Source: Acinetobacter sp. MB5 (lineage in GTDB: Bacteria; Pseudomonadota; Gammaproteobacteria; Pseudomonadales; Moraxellaceae). Taken from it: 64,000 bases of DNA. A program made the position numbers and the translations under genes. Within the stretch, counting starts at the first letter, position 1. The number at the start of each line of letters is the position of its first letter. This document shows positions 13,224 to 60,594 of the stretch, piece after piece. The stretch lies in assembly GCF_003261585.1 (NCBI RefSeq), contig NZ_POVU01000010.1, forward strand, positions 1-64,000, given 5' to 3'. Under the pieces are notes generated by a model. It made no database searches and had not been told where the DNA came from. It worked only from the letters and a program-made list of their open reading frames with translations.

Positions 13224-13258
13224 TCTAGCTAACTCTGCTAAATGGAAATGAAAAAAAT

Positions 13259-33452: not shown

Positions 33453-33454
33453 GG

Positions 33455-33496: not shown

Positions 33497-33544
33497 AGTT
33501 CAACATGTACCTGTTTTATTAAGTACACATTTTAAGTCCATGGT

Positions 33545-33569: not shown

Positions 33570-33613
33570 GCCAAATCTAAACAAAATGTACGGTTCAATT
33601 TAGGAACAAAAAG

Positions 33614-44408: not shown

Positions 44409-44729
44409 CTTTCATCAATGATGAGGTTACTTAACTTATGTAAGTTATGAAAAAATCAAGCTTATCAGGAATCCGTCCACATATTGCCGTCCGGATGAAT
44501 GCTTTATTGCTATATCGGCCGTCCAGACACCATATCAAGACAATCACTTTCATCAATGATGAAGTTACTTAACTTATGTAAGTTATGAAAAAATCAAGCT
44601 TGTCAGGAATCCGTCCACATATTGCCGTCCGGATGAATGCTTTATCGCTATATCGGCCGTCCAGACACCATATCAAAGCAATCACTTTCATCAATGATGA
44701 AGTTACTTAACTTATGTAAGTTATGAAGC
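44409..44729. repeat. 138-bp tandem direct repeats, 2.3 copies
   Basis: Units start at 44409, 44547 and 44685 with an exact 138-base period; the third is cut after about 45 bases, just before the rep stop. Each full unit holds the palindrome TAACTTATGTAAGTTA, related to the CATAACTT octamer, and an iteron-like TCAGGAATCCGTCCACAT. It also has several GCCGTCC blocks. This suggests extra Rep- and partition-protein sites downstream of rep. Confidence 0.8.
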
Positions 44730-44740: not shown

Positions 44741-45721
44741 TCATTTAAATTTTTCTTTGAAACCAACCTCTAATAAATACTGATAATACTTTTGTACATT
44801 TTTCTGCTCTTGAAGCTCGCTAGCTATTCTTTCACGGAAGTCATCTATTGACTCACCAATATTCGCATACTTCGCTCCAAATTTTGGATATAACACTAAA
44901 TCACATAGCTTATTTGCAAAAAAAACACTCTGCTTTGGAGTCAATAAATAACTTGGCTCTAACACGATCTCATTTGAGTTTGAATTTAGATCGACTTTAA
45001 GATCAAATGAAAATTCTATATGTGTAATTGTTCTGCCTTCTTTTCTTTGAACATAATTCACATCAATATCAGTAAATTTATTAATTTGATCTATTGCAAC
45101 TGTCAGCACGCGTTTCTTAAAATCGCCCATTACTTTATATTCATTTTCAAGTAAACCTAGCTTTTCTCTTAACTGAAGAATACTAATATATAATTTTCCT
45201 TTTCCCTTCCATCTGATCAATAATTCATATAGCCGTATAGCATAGACACTCGATAGTTGCGAAATTTGTTTTAATTCATAACGCGTGAATTTTTCTTCGA
45301 GCTTCACAAATAATTGTAAAATATCTTGCGTAAATACGAGCTGAGCACAAGCAGCTTCTTTGACATAACCAACTTTAGAGACCCAACGGCTTTTATAAAT
45401 CGCTGGTTTCCCTGTTAGAGGGTCTATAGCTTTATAAGTGAGCCGACGTTCAAATAAATTATCACATGCGGTCTGTAGGGCCTCATACGCTGATTGGCGG
45501 CCTAAATTGAAGTGCTTCATATATTCTGATGCGTGAATTGTCAAAACAGTATCTGAGGTAAGATCTTTTTCAATATCTCTTGCCGCGATAATTGCAATTA
45601 GAATTAAGCGTTGTTCAGATAAGTTTAAAGAGTAAGATGCTTCAATTAAGTTATTATCTTTATATATTACATTCGCCATGTCATGACTCATCATGAAAAC
45701 ACAATCTATGGACATTAACAT
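44741..45721 (-). CDS. Rep_3-family (RepB-type) plasmid replication initiator
   Basis: Up to 326 residues. Two winged-helix domains are expected: the N-terminal half has LSEQRLILIAIIAARD, and the middle has KLEEKFTRYELKQISQLSSV followed by YAIRLYELLIRWKGKGK, the conserved Rep_3 core. MGDFKKRVLTVAIDQINKFT belongs to the DNA-binding helix of the second domain. It binds the 22-bp iterons just upstream (45751-45882) to open the origin. The first 14 codons are probably not translated; MANVIYKDNN (ATG at 45677-45679) is a good alternative start. Confidence 0.88.
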   Translation of the reverse strand: MLMSIDCVFMMSHDMANVIYKDNNLIEASYSLNLSEQRLILIAIIAARDIEKDLTSDTVLTIHASEYMKHFNLGRQSAYEALQTACDNLFERRLTYKAIDPLTGKPAIYKSRWVSKVGYVKEAACAQLVFTQDILQLFVKLEEKFTRYELKQISQLSSVYAIRLYELLIRWKGKGKLYISILQLREKLGLLENEYKVMGDFKKRVLTVAIDQINKFTDIDVNYVQRKEGRTITHIEFSFDLKVDLNSNSNEIVLEPSYLLTPKQSVFFANKLCDLVLYPKFGAKYANIGESIDDFRERIASELQEQKNVQKYYQYLLEVGFKEKFK

Positions 45722-45750
45722 TTAACGTCCATATTTTAAAGTTTTTTTTT

Positions 45751-45882
45751 GATGTAAGGGATTTGTCTATATATGTCAGGAATCCGTCCACTTATTGTCA
45801 GGAATCTGTCATTTTGAATCACGGAATTTGTCCACATAATGACAGGAATTTGTCCATATAATGACAGGAATTTGTCCATATA
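45751..45882. repeat. oriV: six tandem 22-bp iterons
   Basis: Six contiguous units of 22 bases start at 45751, 45773, 45795, 45817, 45839 and 45861. The last two are identical, with core GACAGGAATTTGTCCATATA; the others vary (GTCAGGAATCCGTCCACT, GTCAGGAATCTGTCATTT, CACGGAATTTGTCCACAT), and the first is the most degenerate. The even period puts all sites on one helix face. They lie 30 bases upstream of rep, the usual iteron position. Confidence 0.88.
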
Positions 45883-45970
45883 TATTCTCTGAAAGCTATA
45901 TTCTGTAAGCTTTGCAGCGAATCTATAAATATAAAATAAATAAAATTATAAATTTAAAAAAAGAATTACT

Positions 45971-45979
45971 TGTGGATAA
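45971..45979 (-). promoter_or_regulatory. DnaA box in oriV
   Basis: TGTGGATAA, the reverse of the consensus TTATCCACA, lies 89 bases beyond the last iteron in a strongly A+T-rich stretch (45900-46050) that could be the unwinding element. Confidence 0.7.
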
Positions 45980-46057
45980 CTTTATAAAAAAGCCTTATTT
46001 TCCTATTTATAGTTGATTCAATGTATAAAAACTTATAAATTACGGTTAACAAAATTA

Positions 46058-46074
46058 CGTAACTTACATAACTT
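46058..46074. promoter_or_regulatory. parA operator: partition octamers abutting the start codon
   Basis: CGTAACTT (46058-46065) and CATAACTT (46067-46074) lie directly before the parA ATG, leaving no ribosome site. They match the octamer arrays at 47051 and 60499, so the ribbon-helix-helix partner probably autoregulates here. Confidence 0.65.
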
Positions 46075-46713
46075 ATGATTATTTTAGTTGGTGGTGAAAA
46101 AGGTGGAGCTGGCAAAAGCTGTCTTGCCCAAAACTTAAGCGTTTATTTACAAACAAAAAATAGAGATGTTCTTTTACTCGATGCGGATCCTCAAGGGACA
46201 ACGACAGACTGGATTAAAGAGCGTGATGATAATGAAGAATTGAAAAATATTCCATCGGTTCAAGCATCAGGAAACATTCGTCTTGTTTTAAAAGATTTAG
46301 CAAAAAGATATCAAGATATTGTCATTGATGCTGGTGGACAAGATTCTGAAGCCCTACGTTCTGCAATGACAATAGCAACGCATATGTTACTTCCTTTTAG
46401 ACCCAAACGTAGAGATCTAAAAACATTAGACCATATGGAGCAAGTGTTAAAATTAGCAAAAGCAGTCAATCCTGATTTAAATGCGCGAGCGATTATTACT
46501 CAATGTCCAACTCTACCATCGCAAGTTCAACGCATTTTAGATGCAAAGGATGCATGTTTATCTTTTGGCATTAAAGCGTTAGATCAAATAACTACAAATC
46601 GGAATGTTTATGATGATGCTGATGAAAACGGCCTTTCAGTATTTGAAGTAACAAGTGATCCTAAAGCAAAAGCGGAAATTGAAGGCATCGCACAAGAATT
46701 CTTAGGAGTGTAA
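46075..46713 (+). CDS. parA: ParA-type partition ATPase (short, type Ib)
   Basis: 212 residues, the short ParA form lacking an N-terminal helix-turn-helix. The deviant Walker A is GGEKGGAGKSCLAQNLS, Walker A' and B regions are LLDADPQGTTTDW and DIVIDAGGQD. It uses ATP-driven binding to the nucleoid to move the plasmid. The start is fixed by the P-loop; the ATG directly follows an octamer repeat with no ribosome site, so the mRNA may be leaderless. The partner gene is 3 bases downstream. Confidence 0.9.
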   Translation: MIILVGGEKGGAGKSCLAQNLSVYLQTKNRDVLLLDADPQGTTTDWIKERDDNEELKNIPSVQASGNIRLVLKDLAKRYQDIVIDAGGQDSEALRSAMTIATHMLLPFRPKRRDLKTLDHMEQVLKLAKAVNPDLNARAIITQCPTLPSQVQRILDAKDACLSFGIKALDQITTNRNVYDDADENGLSVFEVTSDPKAKAEIEGIAQEFLGV

Positions 46714-46716
46714 TTT

Positions 46717-47016
46717 ATGGTAGGTCTTAGTGGTTTGAAAAAGAAAACTGAAGAAATCTCAGAACAAGATCAGCTGGTTGAAAATTTCATTTCTGGTGCT
46801 GAAAAAAGAGTTAAGGATTTGGAAGTTTCTCAAAAGAAATTTGTTCGCTGTACATTCTCATTAAATGAAGAATTAAGTCAGCTTATTGATGATCTAATTG
46901 TTAAGAGCAATAACGCACGTGTGAACCGATCAAGTATTGTGAGAATAGCTCTAGAATCATTAGCTGAGCAAACCCCTGAAGAGTTTCAGGAACTCATTAA
47001 TAAAAATTCTAAATAA
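46717..47016 (+). CDS. Ribbon-helix-helix partition protein (ParB/ParG-like)
   Basis: 99 residues. A flexible charged N-terminal half is followed by a C-terminal ribbon-helix-helix: FVRCTFSLNEELSQLIDDLI, then RVNRSSIVRIALESLAEQ. This is the plan of ParG and omega proteins: the tail stimulates the ParA ATPase and the dimer binds short tandem repeats. It is 3 bases after parA and followed 34 bases later by seven CATAACTT octamers, the likely centromere. Confidence 0.82.
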   Translation: MVGLSGLKKKTEEISEQDQLVENFISGAEKRVKDLEVSQKKFVRCTFSLNEELSQLIDDLIVKSNNARVNRSSIVRIALESLAEQTPEEFQELINKNSK

Positions 47017-47050
47017 TAGAAATGCTATTTAATTTATTGAAATTAGATAG

Positions 47051-47106
47051 CATAACTTCATAACTTCATAACTTCATAACTTCATAACTTCATAACTTCA
47101 TAACTT
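47051..47106. repeat. Seven tandem CATAACTT octamers (putative centromere)
   Basis: Seven exact head-to-tail copies of the 8-mer CATAACTT, with no interruption, just after the ribbon-helix-helix gene and upstream of the siderophore promoter. The same octamer precedes parA and forms a longer array at 60499-60594. Confidence 0.85.
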
Positions 47107-47249
47107 ATGCATAAATAGGTGATTTTCCTAGAGAAAGGTGTATTTATTTTTTCATAAATACATGATTTAAAATAAATTATTATATTTTTAGATAGTTTTA
47201 CAAATTTTAAGGTCATTAAATAGAATTATTATTGTTTATTAATGTAAAT

Positions 47250-47268
47250 AATAATAATTATCATTTGC
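47250..47268. promoter_or_regulatory. Fur box upstream of the siderophore operon
   Basis: AATAATAATTATCATTTGC matches 14 of 19 positions of the Fur consensus GATAATGATAATCATTATC. It lies about 55 bases before the first synthetase ATG, so iron repression is expected. Confidence 0.78.
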
Positions 47269-47323: not shown

Positions 47324-49114
47324 ATGAAATCAACCACGGATAGAATAGCTTTACAGCATTTAATAAATTCATATTTCCAAGAAACAGGCTATGGCCACAT
47401 TATTTCTGTTGTAGAACAATCACAAGCACATCGTATAAAAAGTGATCATTCCCCAATTTTACGCATTCCACTTACATCACTTCAAGCACATGTTTATTTT
47501 CCTATTTCATATCAAAGTCATGTGGGGCGCCATCGATTTTCAGGCTTACCATGGGTTGAACGTGAGGGTATAGAAATTGAAATTAGCCCAATGAATTTAG
47601 CGGCTAATTTATTAGAAAATCTGGTTCATCAGCCTAATCAGACAGCATTAGATGCATCGTCTTTACTTGAATGTTGGATTCAGAGCCGCCGAGCTTTAAA
47701 TCAATTCCTAAGTTATCGGGAAGTTGAGCTTGATCAGGTGACGACACTAAAGCAAAGTTTTATTCAGAGTGAACAAGCTTTGGTGTTAGGACATAGCATG
47801 CATCCATCCCCAAAAAGTCGTCAGGGATTTGTGCAGGATGACTGGAAAATTTTCTCACCTGAAACTCGAAACACATTCAAAATGCAATTTCTCTATGTAC
47901 ATCCAGTACATGTCGCCCATGATAATGCGCATGGCATTTCGATTCCTACACAGTTGAAAAATGACTTAGAGCCTTATTTTAATGATTATCATCGGGCAAA
48001 AATGGCTGAATATCCTGAGTATGCTTTGCTGCCATTACACCCTTGGCAAGCACGTTACCTCAAAGATAAAGCATGGTATCAACAACTTTTACATGAAAAT
48101 AAGCTGATTGATTTTGGCGCTTTGGGATGGGACATGAAGGCAACGACTTCTGTTCGAACACTGTATAGTGAACAGGCACCATGGATGTTTAAAACGTCTA
48201 TGACTGTCGCGGTGACAAACTCTGTACGCGTGAATTTATATAAAGAATGTCACCGTGGATTATTGAGTTATCGCTTATGGCATGATGACTGTCTTGTTGA
48301 CTTTAGAAACCGTAATCCACGATTGCAGGTGCTAAGTGATCCAGCCTGGATTGCTTTAAAATTTAATAGCGAAGTGTTGGATGAAACGATTTGTATTTTA
48401 CGAGAGAATCCATTTAACGCTCAGGATGATATCACCTGTATTGCATCGCTTTGCCAAGACAACCCAATCCAAGAAAAAAATCGTTTTAATGAGATCTTCA
48501 CCACAATTTCAATAAAAACAGGAAAGTCTGAAGAAAAAATTGCTTTGCAATGGTTTGATCAGTTTTTGGAAATGACAATTTTGCCTTTGATGGAACTTTA
48601 TCACGAATTTGGTATGGCGTTTGAGGCACATCAACAAAATACCTTAATTGAACTCGAACAAGGCATGCCTAAAACAGTTTGGTTCCGTGACAATCAGGGT
48701 TTTTATTATATACGGGAATTAGCAACTCAAATATTAACGCGGTTTCCTCAATTGGAAACAGATGGGCAGGCAGTTTGTCCTCTTTCTTTGGTGAATGAGC
48801 GTTTCCGTTACTATTTTATTGGGAATACCTTATTTGGTTTGATCAATGCGATTGGTGCATCTGGCGTTGTTTCTGAAAAGAAATTGATTGAAATGTTGCA
48901 AGCTTATTTATTGCGAGCTTATAAAAAATACCCAGATAGTCAATTACTGCAAACGGTACTGTATCAGGAAAGCTTCCCATATAAAGGAAATATGATGACC
49001 CGTTTGTATGAGCTTGATGAATTGCAAGCCCATATTTCACAGCAATCGATTTATATTGATTTAAAAAACCCGTTGCATATTCAGCAGGCAGTTCGGGAGG
49101 CCGACCATGCTTGA
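47324..49114 (+). CDS. NIS siderophore synthetase (IucA/IucC family) 1
   Basis: About 596 residues. Family motifs are the nucleotide-binding GHSMHPSPKSRQGF (about residue 145), LLPLHPWQARYLKD (about 240), the KATTSVRTLYS and KTSMTVAVTNSVRVNLYKE core, and the C-terminal FhuF-like tail. NIS synthetases couple citrate or a substituted citrate to an amine or hydroxamate using ATP via an acyl adenylate. I start at the ATG at 47324 (MKSTTDRIAL) rather than a GTG 9 bases earlier. It is first in a long operon under a Fur box; the next gene overlaps by 8 bases. Confidence 0.88.
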   Translation: MKSTTDRIALQHLINSYFQETGYGHIISVVEQSQAHRIKSDHSPILRIPLTSLQAHVYFPISYQSHVGRHRFSGLPWVEREGIEIEISPMNLAANLLENLVHQPNQTALDASSLLECWIQSRRALNQFLSYREVELDQVTTLKQSFIQSEQALVLGHSMHPSPKSRQGFVQDDWKIFSPETRNTFKMQFLYVHPVHVAHDNAHGISIPTQLKNDLEPYFNDYHRAKMAEYPEYALLPLHPWQARYLKDKAWYQQLLHENKLIDFGALGWDMKATTSVRTLYSEQAPWMFKTSMTVAVTNSVRVNLYKECHRGLLSYRLWHDDCLVDFRNRNPRLQVLSDPAWIALKFNSEVLDETICILRENPFNAQDDITCIASLCQDNPIQEKNRFNEIFTTISIKTGKSEEKIALQWFDQFLEMTILPLMELYHEFGMAFEAHQQNTLIELEQGMPKTVWFRDNQGFYYIRELATQILTRFPQLETDGQAVCPLSLVNERFRYYFIGNTLFGLINAIGASGVVSEKKLIEMLQAYLLRAYKKYPDSQLLQTVLYQESFPYKGNMMTRLYELDELQAHISQQSIYIDLKNPLHIQQAVREADHA

Positions 49115-50510
49115 TTTTATTGGCGTAGGATTAGGGCCATTTAATTTGAGTTTGGCTGCTCTATTAAATCAACATGATGCTTTAAAGTATCGTTTTTTTG
49201 AGAAGCATGCAAAATTTGATTGGCATTCGGGATTACAACTTCCCAATGCTATGTTACAAGTTCCATTTATGGCTGATTTGGTGAGTCTTGTAGAACCGAC
49301 CAGTCCATATAGTTTTTTGAATTATTTGAAAGATCAACAGCGACTCTACAAATTTTACTTTCGAGAAAATCTTTATATTCCACGTAAAGAATATAACCAC
49401 TACTGCCAGTGGGTTGTAAAGCAATTACAAAATGTGCAGTTTGGGAGTAGAGTGACTGAGATTGCACCCATTTCTAAGGGCTTTCAAGTTATTACAGAAC
49501 AACAGGGACGGCTTTCAATCCATCAAACACGAAAGCTAGTTTTAGGTGTTGGAACAGTACCTAGACTGCCACAACCGTTACAGATACTCGCTGAACAAAC
49601 CCCGAACTGCTTACATTCATCGAATTATTTAAATCAACTGGATGAGAGTGACTTGAAAGGCAATGTAGTCTTAATTGGCTCGGGTCAGTCTGCTGCCGAA
49701 ATCTTTATCGATCTGTTTGATCGGCAAATTTCAAATGACACGGGTTTGGCGAAGTTTCATCTGTATTGGTTAACGCGTTCCCCCGGTTTCTTTCCAATGG
49801 AAAATACACCGCTAGGTCTAGAGAATTTTAGCCCAGATTATATGCAGTATTTTCATCAACTTCCTAAAGAACTAAAGGATAAATTGCCTGCTGAACAAGC
49901 TCACCTTTATAAAGGTATCAGTAGTAAAACGATTCGTGATATTTATGAGCGCCTTTATCATCGTAGTATCGGTCAGGCAGAAACCCATGTCACACTTGCA
50001 GGTCATCATCAGCTTGAAAATGCTGAACTTGCAAGCTCGAAACAGATTGAATTAAAGTTTTTCCAGACACAAAAACGTCATGTGATTCACCTGCAGGCAA
50101 ATACCGTAATTGCAGCAACGGGTTATCGTTATCCGACCTCTCATTTTTTGAATAAATTAAATCATCTTATTCCCCTAGATTCACAACATCGCTGGCAAAT
50201 TGATGCCAAACATCAGCTTCAATATGAGGGTGAAGGTGAAATTTATATTCAAAATACAGACTTACACCATCATGGCGTAGGGACACCAGACCTAGGTTTG
50301 GGGGCATTTCGTTCAGCAAAAATTGCCAATCAAATTTTAGGCCAACCCTATTTTGAGCTTGAAGCAAGGCAAAGCTTTCAAGAGTTTCAAATCTCTGAGC
50401 CACATCCATTACCAACAGTTGTACGAACATCTAAAGCTGCATATCGGTCAGAACATGTTTTGTCTCAGTTTTCAGGCAAACAAAATGCTGAGTACACCAC
50501 TAAGTCGTGA
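49107..50510 (+). CDS. Siderophore amine N-hydroxylase (lysine/ornithine/diamine monooxygenase, IucD-like)
   Basis: 467 residues of the flavin N-monooxygenase family. FAD site DFIGVGLGPFNLSLAALL, substrate region QVPFMADLVSLVEPTSPYSF, NADPH site VVLIGSGQSAAEIFIDL, and the late ATGYRYP motif. It would hydroxylate the terminal amine of lysine, ornithine or a diamine; in the related acinetoferrin the amine is 1,3-diaminopropane. Overlap with the previous synthetase shows coupled translation. No diaminopropane-forming dat/ddc genes lie in the window, so that precursor, if used, comes from elsewhere. Confidence 0.88.
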   Translation: MLDFIGVGLGPFNLSLAALLNQHDALKYRFFEKHAKFDWHSGLQLPNAMLQVPFMADLVSLVEPTSPYSFLNYLKDQQRLYKFYFRENLYIPRKEYNHYCQWVVKQLQNVQFGSRVTEIAPISKGFQVITEQQGRLSIHQTRKLVLGVGTVPRLPQPLQILAEQTPNCLHSSNYLNQLDESDLKGNVVLIGSGQSAAEIFIDLFDRQISNDTGLAKFHLYWLTRSPGFFPMENTPLGLENFSPDYMQYFHQLPKELKDKLPAEQAHLYKGISSKTIRDIYERLYHRSIGQAETHVTLAGHHQLENAELASSKQIELKFFQTQKRHVIHLQANTVIAATGYRYPTSHFLNKLNHLIPLDSQHRWQIDAKHQLQYEGEGEIYIQNTDLHHHGVGTPDLGLGAFRSAKIANQILGQPYFELEARQSFQEFQISEPHPLPTVVRTSKAAYRSEHVLSQFSGKQNAEYTTKS

Positions 50511-50521
50511 GGAGACGGGCG

Positions 50522-51943
50522 ATGGCTGAAATGCCAAAGTCATTACCTGTTGGATCTCGTTGGGTAATGTTGTGTGTCATGTTGGGTACAGGAACAGTGA
50601 GCCTGAATAACAGCAGTTTTAACCCTGCAATTGTTCAGCTTATGCATGATTTCCGTATTGGTGAATCTGTCGTGAGTTGGGTCATGGTCATTTTTTTATT
50701 GACCATGAGTTTAAGCTTGCTCATTACAGGATATCTAAGTCAACGGTTTGGAAAGCGTCAGGTTTATCTATGTGCATTGGCCGTTTTTGTACTGAGCTCT
50801 TTACTCGGTGTTTTCGTAAAACAATTTGAAACAGTGCTCCTCGTTCGTGCTTTGCATGGCTTTGCAAGTGGATTAATGATTCCTTTATCACTAGGCATTA
50901 TTTTTTCTGTGACACCACAAGATCAGCGCGGAACCGCTACTGGGCTTTGGGGGGCAATGATTATGCTTACTCTCGCTGGTGGCCCTATGATTGGTGCAGT
51001 TATTTTATTGTATTGGCATTGGCAGACTTTGTTTCTGATCAATATTCCATTGGGTGTCTCTGCATTCTGGCTAGGTTGGATACATTTACCTAAACAGCCC
51101 ATCAATCAATCTCAATCTTTTGATTGGTCTGGATTTCTCCTACTTTCGGTTGCAATTGTTGGTTTGCTCTTCGGATTAAGTCAGATCAAGCAACTTGGAG
51201 ATCTTCACCATGTAAACTTCTGGGCAACGCTGGGTTTAAGTGGGTTAGCTGGGCTACTGTTTTGCTTAACAAATCAGAAGAAAAAACATTCATTGATAGA
51301 TTGGAAACTGTTTAAAAATGCGAGTTTCAATCGCAGTTTGATGATTTCTGTTGTTCATACAGTGGGGCTATTTATTAGCTTACTACTGATACCTTTACTG
51401 ATTCAGAACACCTTGCAGTTGAGTCCGATTTGGACAGGTATTTTGCTGATGAGCAGTGCTTTAACCACCAGTTTATGTAGTAAATGGGCAGGGCATTATC
51501 TGGATCGACATGGTGCAAAATTATTAATTTCTGGAGGCATGTTATTCACTGCTACTGCATTTATAGGCCTCGCGGTGGGTATTAATCTGCCTATTCCATA
51601 TCTTGTGGTTTGCATGGTGATTCATGGACTCGGTTTTGGGTTGTCTTATATGCCGTCTACAACTGCTGGATTAAACAGTTTACATGATCAGGAATTGGTG
51701 ACGCAGGGTGCAGCGCTGAACAATTTGATTCGAAGAGTTTGCTCGGCTGTTGCCGTGGTCATCGCAGCACTCTATCTACAGATTCGTACAGATTCACTTT
51801 CATCCACACATCAACTAGATGTGGCACAACTTTCAGCAATGCGAGAGCTCTTTTTTATCTGTGCTGTGATGCTGTTTTTGGCATTACCACAGGCGTGGAA
51901 ATTTCCATCTCAAAGCTCATCCAAAGGCATGATTAAAGATTAA
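50522..51943 (+). CDS. MFS exporter of the siderophore (DHA2/EmrB-like)
   Basis: About 473 residues with about 14 helices. Helix 1 loop NNSSFNPAIVQLMHDF, loop 2-3 GYLSQRFGKRQVYL, helix 4 RALHGFASGLMIPL, motif C region LTLAGGPMIGAVI and GHYLDRHGAKLL in the second half fit drug:H+ antiporter family 2. In siderophore loci such proteins export the finished siderophore. GAGGAGA lies 6 bases before the ATG at 50522, a better start than a GTG at 50507 that overlaps the hydroxylase stop. Confidence 0.86.
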   Translation: MAEMPKSLPVGSRWVMLCVMLGTGTVSLNNSSFNPAIVQLMHDFRIGESVVSWVMVIFLLTMSLSLLITGYLSQRFGKRQVYLCALAVFVLSSLLGVFVKQFETVLLVRALHGFASGLMIPLSLGIIFSVTPQDQRGTATGLWGAMIMLTLAGGPMIGAVILLYWHWQTLFLINIPLGVSAFWLGWIHLPKQPINQSQSFDWSGFLLLSVAIVGLLFGLSQIKQLGDLHHVNFWATLGLSGLAGLLFCLTNQKKKHSLIDWKLFKNASFNRSLMISVVHTVGLFISLLLIPLLIQNTLQLSPIWTGILLMSSALTTSLCSKWAGHYLDRHGAKLLISGGMLFTATAFIGLAVGINLPIPYLVVCMVIHGLGFGLSYMPSTTAGLNSLHDQELVTQGAALNNLIRRVCSAVAVVIAALYLQIRTDSLSSTHQLDVAQLSAMRELFFICAVMLFLALPQAWKFPSQSSSKGMIKD

Positions 51944-51952
51944 GGAAAAAAT

Positions 51953-53779
51953 ATGAGTAATTTAACAACATCACATTTAGCTTTTTCACCGACCGTTACA
52001 TGGCAGCAGCCTGATCTAAATACAACACATCAGGTGGAACAACGTGTTATCAAACAACTCTTACAAGCTTTGATTTATGAAGAAATCATTGAAAGTAAAT
52101 ACGAAAATGGCGTATTTGTGATTGATACGCAAGATCAAAATAACCAACCTGTTCAATATCTGGCAAAAGGAATTCGGCATCTGAGCTTTGGTTTAGTACG
52201 TCTCAATCGGCAAGATGTGATGCGTCAAGACGATACTGGTCAGCAGACAACGGCCCGTTTGAATTTGTTGCTAGATGAGCTGGTCAGAACGATTACTGAA
52301 GCAGAAAAACGTGATGAATTTATCAGTGAGTTAAAACGTACGTTTATCCATGATTTACAATCCCAAGCTTGTTTACAGGCTTATAGTTTGCCTGCAAGCC
52401 AATATCATTATGATGAGCTTGAAACGTATTTGATGGAGGGACATCCCTATCATCCTTGTTATAAATCGCGTGTCGGCTTTAGTCTGCAAGATAATCTAAA
52501 ATATGGGGTTGAATTTGCACAGCCAATTCATTTGGTTTGGTTAGCTGTGCATGTGTCTATATTGACTCGCAATGTTTCAGGTCATATAGATGCAGACGAA
52601 TATTTGAATCAGCAACTGACTGAACAAGATCAACAGAATTTTAGCGAGATCCTGTTGGAAAAATCTGTTGATCCAGATGATTATGTCTGGTTACCTGTTC
52701 ATCCTTGGCAATGGGAAAACACTTTAATTCATGTGTTCTTTGAAGAAATTGTAAAACAGACCATCATTTACTTGGGGAAAGGTGAAACGGCTTACATCGC
52801 ACAGCAGTCGTTACGCACCCTGACAAATGTCAAACAGCCTGACCAGCCCTATATTAAACTGTCCATGAGTTTAACCAATACTTCCAGTTCACGTCTGTTG
52901 GCTGCACATGCTGCGATGAATGGCCCATTAATTACAGACTGGTTGCAGCGTTTAATGGACAACAGTGACATTGCGAAAACATTAGATTTTGCAATTCTAC
53001 GAGAAGTTCATGCGACAGCGGTTGATTTTGGCAAGTTGCCAAATTCCCATGCAAAACAGGCTTATGCAGCGATTGGCAGTTTGTGGCGTGAAAGTGTGCA
53101 TCAATATTTGAAAGCAGATGAAGATGCGATCCCACTTAATGGGATTGGGCATGTTCAACAAGATCAACAACTTTTAATCAAACCCTGGCTTGATCAATAT
53201 GGTACAGATCAGTGGATTGATCAGTTCCTTTCCGTCGTGATTCAACCGATTTTATTTTTCTTGTATGCGGAAGGTATAGGTTCAGAATCTCATGGTCAAA
53301 ATATTATTTTGGTTCATCGAGAGGGTTGGCCAACTCGTATTATTTTAAAAGACTTCCACGACGGTGTACGTTTTAGTCCAGAACATTTAACCCATCCTGA
53401 GCAATGTCCACAATTACATGCGCTGCCAAGTCAACATGCGAAAACCAATCGTATGTCATTTATCTTGACTGATGATTTAAATGCAGTACGTGATTTTAGC
53501 TGTGCTTGTTTATTCTTTGTTGCCTTGAGTGATATTGCAATTTGCTTAAAGCAAATGATTAATTTCGATGAAGAAATTTTCTGGAAAAAGGCTGCTCGCG
53601 TTATTCATGTGTTTCAAAAAATCCATCCAGAGCATCAAGCCAGATTCCAAAAATTTGATGTCTTTGCCCCTCAATATTGTGTCGAGTCACTGACTAAACG
53701 TCGTTTATATGGTGATACAGTCGTGCAGTTACGACAAGTCAATAATCCCTTGTATGCATTTCGACATGACCGTGTATGA
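51953..53779 (+). CDS. NIS siderophore synthetase (IucA/IucC family) 2
   Basis: 608 residues. LMEGHPYHPCYKSRVGFS (nucleotide site), VWLPVHPWQWENTLI, SLRTLTNVKQPDQPYIKLSM, EGIGSESHGQNIILVHREGW and LKDFHDGVRF are canonical synthetase motifs. The FhuF-like C-terminal domain is also present. It would make one of the two or three amide bonds of the siderophore. AAGGAA lies 6 bases before the ATG. Its stop overlaps the longest reading of synthetase 3. Confidence 0.9.
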   Translation: MSNLTTSHLAFSPTVTWQQPDLNTTHQVEQRVIKQLLQALIYEEIIESKYENGVFVIDTQDQNNQPVQYLAKGIRHLSFGLVRLNRQDVMRQDDTGQQTTARLNLLLDELVRTITEAEKRDEFISELKRTFIHDLQSQACLQAYSLPASQYHYDELETYLMEGHPYHPCYKSRVGFSLQDNLKYGVEFAQPIHLVWLAVHVSILTRNVSGHIDADEYLNQQLTEQDQQNFSEILLEKSVDPDDYVWLPVHPWQWENTLIHVFFEEIVKQTIIYLGKGETAYIAQQSLRTLTNVKQPDQPYIKLSMSLTNTSSSRLLAAHAAMNGPLITDWLQRLMDNSDIAKTLDFAILREVHATAVDFGKLPNSHAKQAYAAIGSLWRESVHQYLKADEDAIPLNGIGHVQQDQQLLIKPWLDQYGTDQWIDQFLSVVIQPILFFLYAEGIGSESHGQNIILVHREGWPTRIILKDFHDGVRFSPEHLTHPEQCPQLHALPSQHAKTNRMSFILTDDLNAVRDFSCACLFFVALSDIAICLKQMINFDEEIFWKKAARVIHVFQKIHPEHQARFQKFDVFAPQYCVESLTKRRLYGDTVVQLRQVNNPLYAFRHDRV

Positions 53780-53790
53780 GGGCGTGTGAA

Positions 53791-55692
53791 ATGAATACGA
53801 TGCTGCGACCTCAGACTAAAATTAATCAAGCTATTTTGACCGACCTGATCAATAGTTTATTGGCTGAACACTACATTTCAGAGCGCGTAATTTTTACATA
53901 TACACAAGCACTCACTATTTTGGAGAAAACATCATACAGATGCCTTGAAGCATTTGAAAATAATGGGAATGAACAGGATTATTTTGCAATATACGTTAAT
54001 CAATCTTCTAGTGAATATCTGGTCATTCCATTAAAAATGGCCATTAAACAACCTTGGGAAATGAAAAATACGATTCTTCATATTGTCAAGGAGCAGTATG
54101 ACTACATTTTAAATACGCCCTCTATTTTAGAAGTTATGGATGTATTACAAGATTTAGGTGTCTTTGAAGTATGTCAGGTTGAAAAGTTTGTGCAGTTTCG
54201 TTCAGATCTTGCCTACGCAATTGTGCAACATGAATTGAGTCAAGATCAGAAAATGTTGAATGGTGGTTTGTTATCTTACTCTCCTGCTGAATTATTTCGG
54301 AAATTTGAACAATATGCAGCATTACGTGACCGACCCTATCACCCTTTAGCAAAGTTAAAGGTCGGATTTTCCGCCGCAGAATATCAGGCTTTTAGCCCAG
54401 AGTTTCAACAGAAAATCCCCGTGTGCTGGGTTGCGATAAAAAAGGAAATGCTCGTTTATGGCACGGATATTGTTGACATTGAGCAACAACAACCTGCGCG
54501 CATATTTTTAAATGTACAACAAAATAGAGAACTTCAAGCAGAGTTAGATGACAAAAATATTGGTCAAGAATATCTAACCTTCCCCATTCATGCTTGGCAA
54601 TTTGAACATGTACTACCTGTACAATTTACACAGGAAATTGCTGAAAAAACGATTATTCCGTTGCAGTATAGTGTTGATCATTTTTATGCGAGTTCATCAC
54701 TTAGAAGTCTATTGTCCTGCTCTATGCCAGCAGATTGTTTAAAGCTACCTTTAGCCATTCAGGCTTTGGGTTCACTACGTTTTTTGCCTATCGTCAAAAT
54801 GATCAATGGGCAGAAAAATCAGAAGCTTTTACAACAGGCAAAACACATTGATCCTGTATTAGCAAAACGATTGTGGCTATGTGATGAAAATCAATGGTGG
54901 GGTTATTTACCCGATCAACCCAACAATTTAACAGCAGATAATTTGACATTGTTTGATGAACGGCCTATGCATTTGGCGGCTCAGCGCCGACAAATTCCCG
55001 CTGAATTGCTTCAAGAACCTTATCAACTCATTCCAATGGCCAGTTTAGGGCAATCCCTTGCAGATCAAAATATCTTTGACTTGATTTTGAAATGGCAAAA
55101 TCGTGAACCAACACTTGAGCAAATTCAGCAGGTCTTTTTTGATTTATGTCTGGACTTTTTTGAAATTAACTTACGTTTATTCCGTCTGGGCTTGATGGGT
55201 GAAATTCATGGGCAGAATATGTGTATTGTGCTTAAAAATGGGCACTTTTCAGGTTTGATGCTTAGAGATCACGATTCTGTTCGAATTCATCTACCTTGGA
55301 TGCAGCAAGTTGGGCTTGATGATCCTCATTATCTCAGTCCACATAATTTTAGAATTACCTTGTACCATGACACGGTTGAAGAGTTACTTGTTTACCTGCA
55401 AACGCTCGGTATTCAGGTCAATTTGGCAAGTATATTGGAGAGTGCAGCCCATTATTATGATTTAGATGAAGTGGATTTATGGCGCGTTCTAGCACAAGCC
55501 TTAGAGCAAGCATTAGCTATAACACCTTTTTCAAATCAAGCTTATACGCAGCTTTACGATTTACTTTTTGAACAGCAGGAATGGCCGTATAAACAATTGC
55601 TTCGCCCATTGCTAGAACAGCGTAATCGTACTGGTAGTATGCCTTCAAGCATTGGGAAAAATCGCAATGTTTTAAAGCATATAATGCAATAA
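53791..55692 (+). CDS. NIS siderophore synthetase (IucA/IucC family) 3
   Basis: About 633 residues, somewhat long for the family. Motifs: YAALRDRPYHPLAKLKVGFS, TFPIHAWQFEHVLP, SSSLRSLLSCSMPADCLKLP, LGLMGEIHGQNMCIVLKNG and LMLRDHDSVRIH. The HPWQ motif is HAWQ here, a small departure from the other two copies. The start at 53791 (MNTMLRPQ) has a GAGGG site 8 bases upstream; an ATG at 53776 overlapping the previous stop is the alternative. A third synthetase is more than a simple symmetric citrate siderophore needs. Confidence 0.88.
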   Translation: MNTMLRPQTKINQAILTDLINSLLAEHYISERVIFTYTQALTILEKTSYRCLEAFENNGNEQDYFAIYVNQSSSEYLVIPLKMAIKQPWEMKNTILHIVKEQYDYILNTPSILEVMDVLQDLGVFEVCQVEKFVQFRSDLAYAIVQHELSQDQKMLNGGLLSYSPAELFRKFEQYAALRDRPYHPLAKLKVGFSAAEYQAFSPEFQQKIPVCWVAIKKEMLVYGTDIVDIEQQQPARIFLNVQQNRELQAELDDKNIGQEYLTFPIHAWQFEHVLPVQFTQEIAEKTIIPLQYSVDHFYASSSLRSLLSCSMPADCLKLPLAIQALGSLRFLPIVKMINGQKNQKLLQQAKHIDPVLAKRLWLCDENQWWGYLPDQPNNLTADNLTLFDERPMHLAAQRRQIPAELLQEPYQLIPMASLGQSLADQNIFDLILKWQNREPTLEQIQQVFFDLCLDFFEINLRLFRLGLMGEIHGQNMCIVLKNGHFSGLMLRDHDSVRIHLPWMQQVGLDDPHYLSPHNFRITLYHDTVEELLVYLQTLGIQVNLASILESAAHYYDLDEVDLWRVLAQALEQALAITPFSNQAYTQLYDLLFEQQEWPYKQLLRPLLEQRNRTGSMPSSIGKNRNVLKHIMQ

Positions 55693-55704
55693 GTGGGACG
55701 GAAT

Positions 55705-56517
55705 ATGTGTACATCAATTCCATGTATCGCACATGATTGTGATATTGAGCTTTCAGATTTTTCTGCTTTTCAAAAAGAATTAATGTCAACGCTCAACATT
55801 CAAGTCATGTTGGTAGATGCATGTACGTATCGAGGTGCAGATTTACTTGATCCTGTTCGATGTTTTGAAATAATTCAAATATTTGCAGAAAAAATAAAGG
55901 CAAAAAATAGCACCTGCGCAGGTTCAATGTTGATTAAGTATTGGGTTGTGCCCTTATTGTATCCATATTGGTATAGCTCACTATTTCAACAACGACAATT
56001 GCCTTGGGCATTCACTGAGTTTGTATTTGATTTACCTGAGAAATGGGCTTGGAACCGTACGCTTACCTTGAATATTAGTCCAAAGAATACTTCGACTTTG
56101 CTACAGGAAAAATATGATTTTGAATCATTATTTTTTATGGTTTTTAGAGATTTAAATTCGATTTTTGAGGTGATCAGTCAGGTAGCCAAAGTTCCTAAAA
56201 AATTGCTTTGGGAAAATACAGCACTTCGTATTTTGCAGTTTTACGACATGATACTCCGTAAACAGCAATTGATTTGTGGACAGGCCATTCAGCAACAACG
56301 TCAATTTCTCATGCAATTATCAGCCAAGCATTTTGAATTAACGCATAACCCCTTTGGTGATTTGATCGAGCATTGGAATCCAGACATAAAAACCTATTGC
56401 AGACAGAAATGTTGCTTTTATTTTCAGCTTCCAGAAGCACAGTATGAATACTGTAAAAGTTGTCCTTTACAAAACCGCGTAAAAACAAAAGATAAATATC
56501 TATGCACCAACATTTAA
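55705..56517 (+). CDS. FhuF-like ferric-siderophore reductase
   Basis: About 270 residues. The C-terminus has the FhuF-type [2Fe-2S] motif: CC in YCRQKCCFYFQL, then CKSC after ten residues (CC-x10-C-x2-C). The family releases iron from hydroxamate siderophores by reduction in the cytoplasm. I start at the ATG at 55705 (MCTSIPCIAHDC), with GGGACGGA just upstream, instead of the GTG at 55693. It overlaps the next gene by 16 bases. Confidence 0.85.
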   Translation: MCTSIPCIAHDCDIELSDFSAFQKELMSTLNIQVMLVDACTYRGADLLDPVRCFEIIQIFAEKIKAKNSTCAGSMLIKYWVVPLLYPYWYSSLFQQRQLPWAFTEFVFDLPEKWAWNRTLTLNISPKNTSTLLQEKYDFESLFFMVFRDLNSIFEVISQVAKVPKKLLWENTALRILQFYDMILRKQQLICGQAIQQQRQFLMQLSAKHFELTHNPFGDLIEHWNPDIKTYCRQKCCFYFQLPEAQYEYCKSCPLQNRVKTKDKYLCTNI

Positions 56518-57119
56518 ATCAATTAATAACCGATTATGCCAATATTTCAACATCAACCATTGGGCATGTCCTTGATCATGGTTACTTACCTCAGATACAT
56601 GCCATAAACCCTGTGCAGCATGTTGTGGGTAAAGTGCGAACGGTGATCTTAGATTCAATCAATGCCATGAATCTTCGTCAGGCGCTCTTAGACAGTCAAC
56701 CTCAGGACATTTTAGTTATAGATGCACGGGCGCTTAAACACCGTGCGTGTTGGGGTGAGCAACGCCATCGGGCCGCGATCTTTCATCAGCTTGCTGCTAT
56801 CGTTATTTTAGGAAATGTGACTGATGTAGATGCACTCAAGAACATGAAAGTTCCCATCTTTGCACAGTCCGTGAGCTGTTTAACGACCCGTAATCAGGGA
56901 GACAGTATTGTACATTTTGATCAAGTTATTGAATTTGAAGGTACATGTATTTCTTCAGGCGATCTAATGATTGGTGATGCAGATGGTGTATTTATCTTAA
57001 ACCCGAGTATTGCTTGCCAACATTTAGAAAAATTTAAATCAATGGAGCTCATGGAGCAACAAAAGCGAGACCATTTTTTTCTTCAGCATCAACGACGTGA
57101 CTATTATCACATTGTTTAA
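56502..57119 (+). CDS. RraA/aldolase-like family protein in the siderophore operon
   Basis: 205 residues. VGKVRTVILDS, PQDILVIDARALKHRACWGE, AIVILGNVTDVDALK, VPIFAQSVS and SSGDLMIGDADGVFIL follow the RraA / 4-hydroxy-4-methyl-2-oxoglutarate aldolase fold. Aldolase members carry Arg-Asp in the DG-x-V-RD motif; here it is LGNVTDVD, so the catalytic Arg is Thr and only the Asp is kept. It may be a remodelled or inactive aldolase, or make or break a 2-oxo acid for the siderophore. It overlaps the reductase gene and is followed 25 bases later by the acyltransferase. Confidence 0.75.
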   Translation: MHQHLNQLITDYANISTSTIGHVLDHGYLPQIHAINPVQHVVGKVRTVILDSINAMNLRQALLDSQPQDILVIDARALKHRACWGEQRHRAAIFHQLAAIVILGNVTDVDALKNMKVPIFAQSVSCLTTRNQGDSIVHFDQVIEFEGTCISSGDLMIGDADGVFILNPSIACQHLEKFKSMELMEQQKRDHFFLQHQRRDYYHIV

Positions 57120-57144
57120 AAAATAGTGAATGAAGGAAATTTCG

Positions 57145-57750
57145 ATGTCGACATTATCATCACAGTTTGCAAACCATTTTACCTATCAAGAACGCCAGAT
57201 ACACTATGCTTTACGTGCTGTAAAAATTCCTGAAGATTTACCATTACTGCATAAGTGGATGCATGAGCCACATGTTATTCCACAATGGCAACTGAATAAA
57301 TCGGAAACAGAACTCGCTATTTATTTTGAAAAAATGATCGTTGATGATCATCAACGCTTGTATATGATTCAAATTGATGATCAAGATGTAGGCTATTGTG
57401 AAATTTATGAAGCTCAGCGAGATCGGCTTTCTCTTTATTATCTAGCACAGCATGAGGATGTCGGATGGCATATTTTATTGGGAGAAAAAACAGTTGTTGG
57501 TCAGGGACATTTTAGAGCTGTTATGAGAATGATCTTTCATTTTATATTTGAAAACTCTTCCGCTCAAAAGATTGTCGGTGAGCCTGATGAAAATGTAAGG
57601 TCATATCGCTATGTTGCTGATGAGATTGCATTAGAAGCTCAAGGAAAAATAAAAATGCCTGAGAAAAATGCAATTTTATATTACTGCTATCGAGATCATT
57701 TTTATAAAAAACTGAATGAACTGGCTATTGGAAATCGTATGCTGTGCTAG
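57145..57750 (+). CDS. Siderophore N-acyltransferase (IucB/AlcB-type GNAT)
   Basis: About 201 residues of the siderophore GNAT group (PF13523-like). LPLLHKWMHEPHVIPQW near the start, GYCEIYEAQRDRLSLYYL, and the acyl-CoA region GEKTVVGQGHFRAVMRMIFH then KIVGEPDENV are present. It acylates the N-hydroxylamine to make the hydroxamate; the acyl group could be acetyl or a longer chain as in acinetoferrin. AAGGAA lies 8 bases before the ATG at 57145. It is the last gene of the operon before the receptor. Confidence 0.85.
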   Translation: MSTLSSQFANHFTYQERQIHYALRAVKIPEDLPLLHKWMHEPHVIPQWQLNKSETELAIYFEKMIVDDHQRLYMIQIDDQDVGYCEIYEAQRDRLSLYYLAQHEDVGWHILLGEKTVVGQGHFRAVMRMIFHFIFENSSAQKIVGEPDENVRSYRYVADEIALEAQGKIKMPEKNAILYYCYRDHFYKKLNELAIGNRMLC

Positions 57751-57902
57751 TTTCTATCTTTTGAACTGATATTTTAAACCCTTTTATACTTTTCTATAAC
57801 CTGAATTGAAAATCACGAATTGAGGAAATATATCATCCTATTTCTTCAATTCTCAGATTTTCTCTTTAATTTTGATTAAATAAAGAATAAAATCTTTTAA
57901 TT

Positions 57903-57921
57903 AATAATGATAAGTATTATT
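57903..57921. promoter_or_regulatory. Fur box upstream of the receptor gene
   Basis: AATAATGATAAGTATTATT matches 15 of 19 positions of the Fur consensus and lies about 40 bases before the receptor ATG, giving the receptor its own iron-regulated promoter. Confidence 0.82.
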
Positions 57922-57962
57922 ATTTGCAATAAATTATACATCTTAAGTATTGAGGCTTTAGA

Positions 57963-60143
57963 ATGCGTCTTTTTCAATTTAGTTTCGGCTTGCTTGCCGT
58001 TGCTGTCAGTAGTCATTTGTATGCGGAGAGTGATATTGAGCTCTCAGAAAACACTCAAAAACAAGTTGCAGAGCTATCAAAAATTGTCGTGACTGCCACA
58101 AGAACACCAAAGAATATTGCGGAAATCGCAGGGACTGTTCAGACCATTAGTGGAGATGAAATTGCTCAGCAATCTGGTACAGGGCGCAGAGTTGCAGATG
58201 TATTGGCACAATTGATTCCTTCTTTGGCACCGAGTACAGGTACAACCAGTAACTATGGTCAAACTATGCGTGGCCGAACTATTTTGGTGATGATTGATGG
58301 CGTTCCTCAAACAGGGTCACGCGATACGGCTCGCCAACTCAATAGTATAAGTCTGGATTCTATTGATCATATTGAGGTGGTTTCTGGCGCGACCAGTATT
58401 TATGGTTCTGGGGCAACAGGTGGGATTATTAATATTATTACCAAACGGGTCGATAAAGATAAACCTGTCGCATTTAGCACCAAGTTTGGCTTAAGCTCGG
58501 CAAATAATTTTCGCGGTGATGGCTTGGCCTATGAACTAGGTCAAACTGCATCATTTAATACGGATAAATGGAATGGCTTCCTAGGGGCAAATTTCACCAG
58601 TACAGGCTCTCAGTTTGATGGAAATGGTGACCGTATTTCAGTTAGTCCATGGCAGGGAAGTACGATGGATACAGACACCATTGATCTCAATGGGCGTTTG
58701 GGGGTGAAATTAACAGATACCCAAACCTTAAGTTTTGGTGCACAGTATTTTAAAGATCAACAAGATACAGAATATGGGCCAGATTATACCAATACAACCT
58801 CAGACTATTACACTGCTAAAAAAGGTTGGAATGTTCCAGATCAACCTTTTACTGAGCGTTATGGGGTAAATACCCAATATCAAGACCAAGATTTTTGGGG
58901 GCAAACATTTAACCTTGAAGCCTATTATCGAAAAGAAAAAATGCGCTTCTTACCCTATTATGGCGCGACGGTTCAAAATGGCTATAGTGTAAAACAAAGT
59001 GAATCCAATAATGATTTTTATGGTCTCCGTTCCACATTGCAATCTAAGTTTACTATTGCAGATCGTGTACTCAATTTGACTTATGGTTTGGACTATGACC
59101 ATGAGAATGATCGTCAGTGGGCGGACCTCTATACTGCCTCAGATAATGGTTTAACTTATACCGCAACAGGCGCAACACAAAGCCAGGGCCCTGACACTCA
59201 TATTGATAATGTTGGTGTTTTTACTCAGGCAGATTATGAGTTAACAGATCGTCTGAATCTACAAGGTGGGATACGGTATCAATATATTCAAGCCAAAACA
59301 GATGCTTATGTACCAGCACGAGAAACCACTTTAGTTGCTGGAGGAAAAACGGATGCAGACAAGTTTCTATTTAATTTAGGGGCAGTATATAAGCTGACAG
59401 ATATACAACAGATTTATGCCAATTTCTCTCAGGGATTTAGTTATCCCGATGTACAACGAATGTTGCGTGATGTCTCAACCTATAATGTCACCACTGCAAA
59501 TCTACAGCCGATTACTGTCAATAGCTATGAGTTGGGGTGGCGTTTAAATCAAGATCAGGGACTAAATCTAGGGTTAACTGCTTTTTATAATACCTCTGAT
59601 AAATCAGTACAGTTCAGTAGTCGTGCCGCACATGTTGTGAACACCGATCAACGTGTCTATGGAACTGAATTTACGATCAGCTATCCATTTATGGAACATT
59701 ATAAAGTTGGTGGAACTTTGGGTTATACCCGTGGGCAATATAAAGATGCATCCAATTCATGGCATGAACTGAATGCATTTAATGTGTCCCCAGTCAAAGG
59801 CACAATCTTTGGTGAATGGATGAATGCAGATGGTTATAGTCTTCGGGTACAGGCTAATGCAGTTAAAGGTTCAGACAAGGCTTATAAAGATGATTTAAAG
59901 CTTGCCGCAAAAGGGTATAGTGATGATAACAATGCTGCTGCAATCAAAGGTTATACGACTATGGATGTGTTAATGCATTTCCCTGCATATAAAGGCCGTG
60001 TTGATTTTGGTGTTTATAATCTATGGAATCGTCAATATAAAACTGTTTTTGCACAACAGGCTGCGGCAACCAATTCTAATCAGTACCTTGATATTCCAGC
60101 TCAAGGTCGTATATTTGCTTTAAGTTATACCATTAATTATTAA
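57963..60143 (+). CDS. TonB-dependent ferric siderophore receptor
   Basis: 726 residues. A signal peptide MRLFQFSFGLLAVAVSSHLY ends at AES. The TonB box region LSKIVVTATR is followed by the plug (IDGVPQTGSRDT, IEVVSGATSIYGSGATGGII) and a 22-strand barrel ending in the aromatic FALSYTINY. It takes up the loaded siderophore through the outer membrane using TonB energy. It has its own Fur box and closes the locus. No periplasmic binding or inner-membrane ABC genes are next to it, so inner-membrane uptake must use other loci. Confidence 0.93.
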   Translation: MRLFQFSFGLLAVAVSSHLYAESDIELSENTQKQVAELSKIVVTATRTPKNIAEIAGTVQTISGDEIAQQSGTGRRVADVLAQLIPSLAPSTGTTSNYGQTMRGRTILVMIDGVPQTGSRDTARQLNSISLDSIDHIEVVSGATSIYGSGATGGIINIITKRVDKDKPVAFSTKFGLSSANNFRGDGLAYELGQTASFNTDKWNGFLGANFTSTGSQFDGNGDRISVSPWQGSTMDTDTIDLNGRLGVKLTDTQTLSFGAQYFKDQQDTEYGPDYTNTTSDYYTAKKGWNVPDQPFTERYGVNTQYQDQDFWGQTFNLEAYYRKEKMRFLPYYGATVQNGYSVKQSESNNDFYGLRSTLQSKFTIADRVLNLTYGLDYDHENDRQWADLYTASDNGLTYTATGATQSQGPDTHIDNVGVFTQADYELTDRLNLQGGIRYQYIQAKTDAYVPARETTLVAGGKTDADKFLFNLGAVYKLTDIQQIYANFSQGFSYPDVQRMLRDVSTYNVTTANLQPITVNSYELGWRLNQDQGLNLGLTAFYNTSDKSVQFSSRAAHVVNTDQRVYGTEFTISYPFMEHYKVGGTLGYTRGQYKDASNSWHELNAFNVSPVKGTIFGEWMNADGYSLRVQANAVKGSDKAYKDDLKLAAKGYSDDNNAAAIKGYTTMDVLMHFPAYKGRVDFGVYNLWNRQYKTVFAQQAAATNSNQYLDIPAQGRIFALSYTINY

Positions 60144-60498: not shown

Positions 60499-60594
60499 CA
60501 TAACTTCATAACTTCATAACTTCATAACTTCATAACTTCATAACTTCATAACTTCATAACTTCATAACTTCATAACTTCATAACTTCATAACTA
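60499..60594. repeat. Tandem CATAACTT octamer array, 11 full copies plus one partial
   Basis: Eleven exact head-to-tail copies (60499-60586) and a twelfth differing in its last base. The same 8-mer occurs seven times at 47051-47106, so the two arrays bracket the siderophore locus. It lies 200 bases before a serine recombinase gene. Confidence 0.88.

Follow-up and report, generated by a model that had tools for sequence, protein, structure and literature searches.

Aerobactin (iucABCD) is a lysine-based siderophore made by nonribosomal-peptide-synthetase-independent siderophore (NIS) chemistry, with a hydroxylase, an acyltransferase and two synthetases, one IucA and one IucC. Here we describe a locus with three such synthetases, at positions 47324-60143 of a 64,000-nucleotide stretch of DNA from Acinetobacter sp. 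MB5 (contig NZ_POVU01000010.1, positions 1 to 64,000; hereafter the window). The nearest described systems are those for baumannoferrin (bfn) and acinetoferrin. Excerpts of PMC10483418 list the bfn genes as three NIS synthetase genes (bfnA, bfnD and bfnE), a hydroxylase (bfnB), an MFS protein (bfnC), a 2Fe-2S protein (bfnF), an RraA (bfnG), a receptor (bfnH) and an acyltransferase (bfnL), and give the composition of baumannoferrin as citrate, diaminopropane, diaminobutyrate, decenoate and alpha-ketoglutarate. The same excerpts place bfnG and bfnI among the biosynthetic genes, RraA being a gene label there. Gene names and mutants are given in excerpts of PMC7595644, in which enzyme assignments were not found. 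According to part of PMC9162365, the baumannoferrin cluster is found in members of the A. calcoaceticus-baumannii complex and also beyond it. Acinetoferrin biosynthesis is assigned to acbABCD (PMC13320182, in excerpt). For staphyloferrin B, SbnE is a type A and SbnF a type C synthetase, and alpha-ketoglutarate is the substrate of SbnC (PMC3179956, in excerpt).

It is highly probable, in our judgement, that the window locus is a member of the bfn family of NIS siderophore loci, probably plasmid-borne, and that it works in the way proposed below. The locus consists of nine open reading frames (ORFs) on the plus strand, all intact, full length and without internal stops. Their families agree with Pfam and NCBIfam profile searches, which upholds the gene inventory of a first-pass annotation of this DNA: three complete synthetases, hydroxylase, GNAT acyltransferase, MFS exporter, FhuF-like reductase, RraA-like protein and receptor. 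First comes a type A synthetase resembling BfnA and AcbA (NIS1, 47324..49114; best PDB match IucA 5jm7, 1.8e-50), starting at ATG 47324 or possibly at GTG 47315. It is followed by a BfnB-like flavin N-hydroxylase (49107..50510; PF13434, 1.6e-110), a BfnC-like MFS exporter of the DHA2 type (50507..51943; TIGR00711, above its cut-off), and a BfnD-like type C synthetase of the AsbB/SbnF kind (NIS2, 51953..53779; best PDB match AsbB 3to3, 8.4e-121). The third synthetase is BfnE-like and of type B (NIS3, 53776..55692, with an ATG start at 53776 or 53791), and is predicted to use alpha-ketoglutarate; its best PDB match, 7cbb (3.9e-81), we take to be SbnC, itself presumably a type B synthetase. The remaining genes encode a fast-evolving, BfnF-like 2Fe-2S ferric-siderophore reductase of the FhuF kind (55693..56517; PF11575), a BfnG-like RraA-like protein in which Thr-107 replaces the catalytic Arg (56502..57119; PF03737), a BfnL-like GNAT acyltransferase that has moved relative to bfn (57130..57750; PF13523, 2e-39), and a BfnH-like TonB-dependent receptor (57963..60143; Pfam). 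Each synthetase combines IucA_IucC (184-245 bits) and FhuF domains in Pfam; the other Pfam families at the locus are Lys_Orn_oxgnase, MFS_1, FhuF_C (2Fe-2S), RraA-like, Acetyltransf_8 and TonB receptor. In the whole 3.67-Mb genome, PF04183 matches (E <= 0.001) are confined to these three synthetases.

The nine proteins were compared by tblastn with 83 loci (the 80 best of 225 confirmed, plus three from a plasmid collection), a set biased to relatives of NIS2; a gene lying beyond roughly 10 kb would escape this comparison. The A. baumannii bfn reference, L084, is unannotated; its genes received their bfn names by matching their order and families to the gene table excerpted from PMC10483418. 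From bfnA to bfnG the order in L084 is the same as here, the three synthetases and the RraA gene included. Identities over aligned positions are 50% for BfnA, 60% for BfnB, 55% for BfnC, 61% for BfnD, 49% for BfnE, 33% for BfnF, 51% for BfnG, 69% for BfnH and 52% for BfnL. There are two differences in layout. The bfnL-type acyltransferase gene precedes the receptor gene here, whereas its position differs in A. baumannii bfn; and bfnI, bfnJ and bfnK, which come after the receptor in bfn, are missing from the window locus. Because bfnI-K are absent, we speak of a bfn-type relative, not of the bfn locus itself. Collinearity with a characterised cluster of known product, which the first-pass annotation had named as refuting its reading, is complete for gene content (nine of nine) and nearly so for gene order (eight of nine): the acyltransferase alone is displaced, bfnI-K are missing and identities are 33-69%.

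To the first-pass annotation, a third synthetase together with an RraA-like gene had pointed to a possibly new siderophore. This argument mostly falls, since bfn has three synthetases and bfnG in the same order and its product is known; both features are to be expected here because both belong to the known bfn system. We likewise rejected the view that a two-synthetase pathway had been extended here by a third enzyme: three synthetase matches are also found in bfn, in related Acinetobacter loci and in achromobactin-type loci.

Some observations weigh against our assignment. A tblastn search with BfnI, BfnJ and BfnK gave no match in the window or in the rest of its contig; the best match to BfnJ elsewhere in the genome is 36% identical and on a different contig (BfnI and BfnK were sought on the window's contig only). 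The bfn proteins are only 33-69% identical to those of the window, which leaves room for another acyl chain or amine. The top NCBIfam model for the hydroxylase is a putative histamine N-monooxygenase, at 423 bits against a cut-off of 700. Finally, chemistry on any member of the window's clade was not found among the matches listed in the open-licence literature (titles and abstract starts). Among the titles and abstract starts listed for plasmid-borne or non-baumannii baumannoferrin systems, there was likewise no description of this locus. A. baylyi, a species with a related locus, has a siderophore system that is not histamine-based (PMC2265553, in excerpt).

The identities of 33-69% mean that the exact product may differ from baumannoferrin. 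It could be a structurally new citrate siderophore, made by the assembly logic of baumannoferrin with a different acyl group, diamine or cap. This is a serious possibility, which we rate somewhat below even, and it is compatible with a bfn-type locus, being a rival as to the product only. The acyltransferase and the type B synthetase are just 52% and 49% identical to the bfn versions, and the locus belongs to a separate clade with a different gene content; against this, the nine functions are all conserved, the same precursor genes are present in the genome, and no extra tailoring gene was found among the ORFs of the locus.

The separate clade is defined by eight loci, L004-L011, which include those of A. 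baylyi DSM 14961 (L005), A. pittii ANC 4050 (L007), A. soli (L009) and A. guillouiae (L010). L004-L006 and L008-L010 keep the order of the nine genes, and L007 and L011 have an inverted receptor gene. Identity to the window is 57-78% for eight genes and 40-54% for the FhuF-like reductase, which is 54% identical to the A. baylyi copy; the receptor is 77% identical to that of A. soli. A tree of eight concatenated proteins groups the window with A. soli and then with A. baylyi (support 0.985 and 1.000), all within the L004-L011 clade, and separates this clade from the bfn clade of L012-L016 and L084 (support 1.000), with a Moraxella locus, L085, as a distant branch. Judged by this tree, the window locus belongs to the sister group of the bfn clade. 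Since A. baylyi is in that group too, relatives of the clinical bfn loci can be studied in a laboratory species.

Among 175 Acinetobacter genomes (one per species, our own included), NIS1 has matches in 79. In 13 of these, the window's among them, identity is at least 72%, and in 48 further genomes it is 49-53% (one match in two pieces). A type B synthetase (at least 558 residues, at least 38% identity) was found in 20 of 173 genomes: 13 window-type, six bfn-type and one achromobactin-type. The 12 other window-type genomes have the locus on contigs of at least 332 kb (nine, probably chromosomal) or of 49-127 kb (three). This set overlaps with L004-L011. Six of those eight, whose contigs are between 332 kb and 3.8 Mb long, are probably chromosomal; the contigs of the other two measure 105 and 127 kb.

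Every one of the six bfn-clade loci has bfnI, bfnJ and bfnK, to which no match was found in L004-L011 or in L144-L146. The three genes do occur in a decaying window-type locus, L147 (genome G111, contig C32), which retains the C-terminal fifth of the type B synthetase, the FhuF-like, RraA (with one stop), GNAT and receptor genes, and bfnI-K. This suggests that bfnI-K formerly followed the receptor in the window clade as well. With such a relative in existence, the window locus too might be non-functional or serve piracy only, its receptor retained while biosynthesis decays. We think this very unlikely, as its nine ORFs are full length and without internal stops and Fur-like sites are present. 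Another remnant, L140 (genome G044, contig C5), has a FhuF fragment, RraA, GNAT and receptor genes beside a different NIS cluster, which includes a double-length synthetase frame (1232 amino acids) and an SbnC-like gene and is of a type found in 14 further genomes.

What would the locus make? By their best matches, NIS1 is of type A (IucA-like), NIS2 of type C (AsbB/SbnF-like) and NIS3 of type B (SbnC-like). The NCBIfam scores are below cut-off for both NIS2 against SbnF (505 bits; cut-off 900) and NIS3 against SbnC (390 bits; cut-off 700). The presence of each type once agrees with a citrate siderophore that is asymmetric and capped with ketoglutarate. The bfn product is asymmetric, and the asymmetry that the first-pass annotation had proposed appears likely. 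From orthology and the published composition of baumannoferrin, the following order and substrates can be suggested. The N-hydroxylase and the acyltransferase would convert 1,3-diaminopropane into an N-hydroxy-N-acyl arm, which the type A synthetase would join to citrate. The type C synthetase would then place 2,4-diaminobutyrate on the other carboxylate of citrate, and the type B synthetase would cap the amine of diaminobutyrate with alpha-ketoglutarate. Diaminobutyrate and diaminopropane would be supplied by dat and decarboxylase genes on another contig, C60. There dat scores 829 bits, above the model cut-off, and is adjoined by a pyridoxal-dependent decarboxylase gene, assigned by Pfam family and adjacency alone; going by these assignments, the genes for both precursors are present in the genome, on a contig other than that of the locus. 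To judge by their families, the MFS protein would export the product, the TonB-dependent receptor would import its ferric form, and the FhuF-like reductase would free the iron.

Two other kinds of locus are instructive here. As an Acinetobacter stand-in for the acinetoferrin genes of A. haemolyticus (acbABCD/actBCAD) we used L139, labelled after the acbABCD description in excerpts of PMC13320182. Its NIS1, hydroxylase, GNAT and receptor are 51%, 52%, 54% and 49% identical to those of the window; the first-pass annotation was right to name acinetoferrin next to baumannoferrin as the nearest type. These identities of 49-54% are what could be said for the window locus making acinetoferrin, that is, citrate with two acyl-hydroxydiaminopropane arms. 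We regard this as very improbable. L139 has two synthetases only, the second just 28% identical to NIS2, and no type B synthetase or RraA was found in the 18 kb of it that were fetched; the window locus has both, while acbABCD is what is described for acinetoferrin (PMC13320182, in excerpt). On gene content we thus rejected an acinetoferrin locus, given three synthetases including the type B NIS3, and equally an aerobactin locus, given three synthetases of three types.

The other kind is formed by loci of Sodalis pSG1, Pseudomonas and two Acinetobacter, which we take to be of the achromobactin type. In these the MFS protein is 38-42%, NIS2 46-50%, NIS3 34-42% and RraA 35-43% identical to the window proteins, and they also have FhuF-like and Thr-form RraA genes. 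Hydroxylase and GNAT matches are absent from them by tblastn. Sodalis pSG1 has its own aminotransferase, pyridoxal-phosphate enzyme, aldolase-family and ABC transporter genes, none of which is in the nine-gene locus of the window. An achromobactin locus was therefore also rejected on gene content: a hydroxylase and a GNAT are present here, and aminotransferase, decarboxylase-type and ABC importer genes are not among the nine genes. Put together, these comparisons lead us to infer that the bfn family combines an acinetoferrin-like acyl-hydroxamate module (NIS1, hydroxylase and GNAT) with an achromobactin-like diaminobutyrate/ketoglutarate module (NIS2, NIS3, RraA and MFS). If correct, such a combination would explain why there are three synthetases, and the three-synthetase architecture as such becomes explicable.

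The RraA-like protein deserves separate attention. Judged by best match, 70 of the 83 loci have a type B synthetase; RraA has a match in 65, all of them within the 70; the other 13 have neither, and the five type B loci that lack RraA are all from Bacillota. At the position of the catalytic Arg, the RraA proteins of the 65 loci have Thr (64) or Ala (1) and never Arg. Within Acinetobacter, Thr is found in 22/22 siderophore-type RraA matches and Arg in 11/11 control matches of the RraA family (eight lower-scoring loci from the genus scan and three matches in a stretch of the window's own genome). All 20 genomes with a type B synthetase, as defined above, have a Thr-form RraA. Two genomes have it without a full type B gene, and both retain remnants: L147 has a remnant of the type B synthetase, and the remnant in L140 lies beside a different SbnC-like gene. 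Fifteen genomes have a distant SbnC-like match (29-36%, over shorter stretches), 14 of them without a siderophore-type RraA. Of the 48 genomes whose NIS1 match is 49-53% identical, 41 likewise show no such RraA. The association is one-way, because those 14 genomes and the five Bacillota loci have a type B-like gene and no RraA. Much of the linkage is the inheritance of one operon, yet the pairing is kept, in several families, among loci that differ in arrangement.

A profile built from 28 RraA members has as its top PDB match 3NOJ, the HMG/CHA aldolase, whose Arg-123 stands opposite Thr-107 and whose Asp-124 stands opposite Asp-108 in the alignment. In that aldolase Arg-123 is essential (activity is undetectable with Ala, and kcat is 181-fold lower with Lys) and Asp-124 binds the metal (PMC5065237, in excerpt). 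The catalytic Arg that precedes the metal-binding Asp is thus missing from the siderophore-type proteins, which have Thr instead. The 28 aligned members have twenty positions without any variation, the picture being similar among 66 sequences, and some of these positions are common to the aldolases. Two residues, Arg-88 and Ser-125, never vary and Arg-130 hardly does; 3NOJ, 3K4I and 5X15 carry other residues there. That these residues are kept despite the loss of the Arg speaks for an active site that was remodelled rather than one that has decayed, as far as an alignment can tell. Perhaps, then, this is a distinct enzyme subfamily dedicated to alpha-ketoglutarate citrate siderophores, which has retained the aldolase fold family and the metal-binding Asp, has Thr for the enolate-stabilising Arg, and would act on the ketoglutaryl or citryl portion by another reaction; we would put this near an even chance, though on the lower side of it. 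The 14 genomes with a distant SbnC-like gene and no siderophore-type RraA weigh against such a dedicated role. Several reactions could be imagined. Ring closure of the ketoglutaryl amide would be one; dismantling of the siderophore beside the FhuF-like reductase would be another. In the excerpts of PMC10483418 no reaction is assigned to bfnG, and this paper was the only one, among the matches listed in open-licence full texts, to contain RraA, siderophore and achromobactin together. Whatever its reaction, the subfamily accompanies type B synthetases in Gammaproteobacteria and in a few Bacillota.

Genes from 47324 to 57750 overlap or are at most about 15 bases apart, and a gap of 212 bases precedes the receptor gene, so two transcription units are likely. 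The two Fur boxes of the first-pass annotation are borne out as Fur-box-like sites ahead of both units, scored over 19 positions against what we assume to be the Fur-box consensus. Those before the biosynthetic operon overlap (47244..47268; two 15/19 matches, at 47244 and 47250); those before the receptor gene (57903..57927) are a 15/19 match at 57903 and a 14/19 match. When the upstream regions were simulated with a first-order Markov model, scores of at least 15 arose in 4/300 runs for the first and 0/300 for the second. The whole window has four sites scoring at least 15, three of them at this locus, compared with a mean of 0.65 in 20 simulations. By blastn, the stretch upstream of the first gene is partly conserved ahead of related loci. 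These sites suggest that Fur would repress both units under iron-rich conditions.

A 95,365-bp contig, probably a plasmid, contains the window as its first 64 kb. It encodes a RepM-type plasmid replication initiator (ORF at 44741..45721, minus strand; repM is annotated in the listed matching plasmids) and, on the plus strand, a ParA-like ATPase with a small partner (ORFs at 46075-46713 and 46717-47016, together 46075..47016, with plasmid matches). This repM-parA-partner cassette (44996-47107) matches 28 Acinetobacter plasmids at about 80% nucleotide identity, and the relaxase region is about 90% identical to plasmids of A. ursingii and A. baumannii. The rest of the contig is a mosaic with insertion sequence (IS) elements and accessory genes. 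No tRNA genes were found on the contig, and an end overlap that would close its 95,365 bp was looked for and not found. Plasmid cargo, as the first-pass annotation had it, is hence a probable description of the locus.

That annotation also placed the locus between partition repeats. Arrays do flank it: a perfect (CATAACTT)7 array directly after the cassette (47051..47106), possibly associated with partition, and a second perfect array, (CATAACTT)11, on the far side (60499..60586). A role in partition is suggested by position only. The same array, in 6-15 copies, stands at the same place after the cassette in four of the five other plasmids fetched, the fifth having a degenerate copy, and no such array was found near the 19 related siderophore loci checked. 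The two flanking arrays suggest that the locus was inserted into an array or that two replicons fused. No empty site lacking the locus was found among the plasmids fetched.

A megablast search with the locus gave no match among 72,556 plasmid records, a collection that may omit entries from this genome or from one very close to it. At the protein level, and among the 40 best of 1834 records of the plasmid collection, NIS2 exceeds 60% identity in only three, all of A. baumannii; we rejected these as plasmids, since at 3.7-4.1 Mb they are chromosome-sized. The other matches among those 40 are below 47%, with Moraxella osloensis plasmids at about 43%; at least ten Moraxella plasmid records match NIS2. 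One of them, NZ_CP068110 (L085), has NIS1, hydroxylase, GNAT, MFS, NIS2, NIS3, RraA and receptor genes, plasmid-borne as in the window; it differs in that identities are 34-45%, the GNAT gene follows the hydroxylase gene, and genes for a SIP-domain protein and a fhu-type ABC importer follow the locus. New, as far as we have searched, are the location on an Acinetobacter plasmid, the variant clade and the RraA pattern; the overall kind of system is known. A complete baumannoferrin-type iron system can evidently sit on a probable Acinetobacter plasmid, and hence might move between species.

We mention a few further features of the window. Beside repM, 44409-44727 and 45779-45888 contain repeats of two kinds with a core in common: tandem units of 138 bp, two of them complete and a third begun, and iteron-like repeats of 22 bp. 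At 9573-13610 there is a cassette of a GlxA-type regulator, an M24 peptidase, an MFS protein and an EamA transporter, about 81% identical to several Acinetobacter plasmids. Another cassette, at 31280-34106, comprises a methionine synthase, a MesX oxygenase and a flavin reductase, and is about 78% identical to plasmids of A. lwoffii and related ones.

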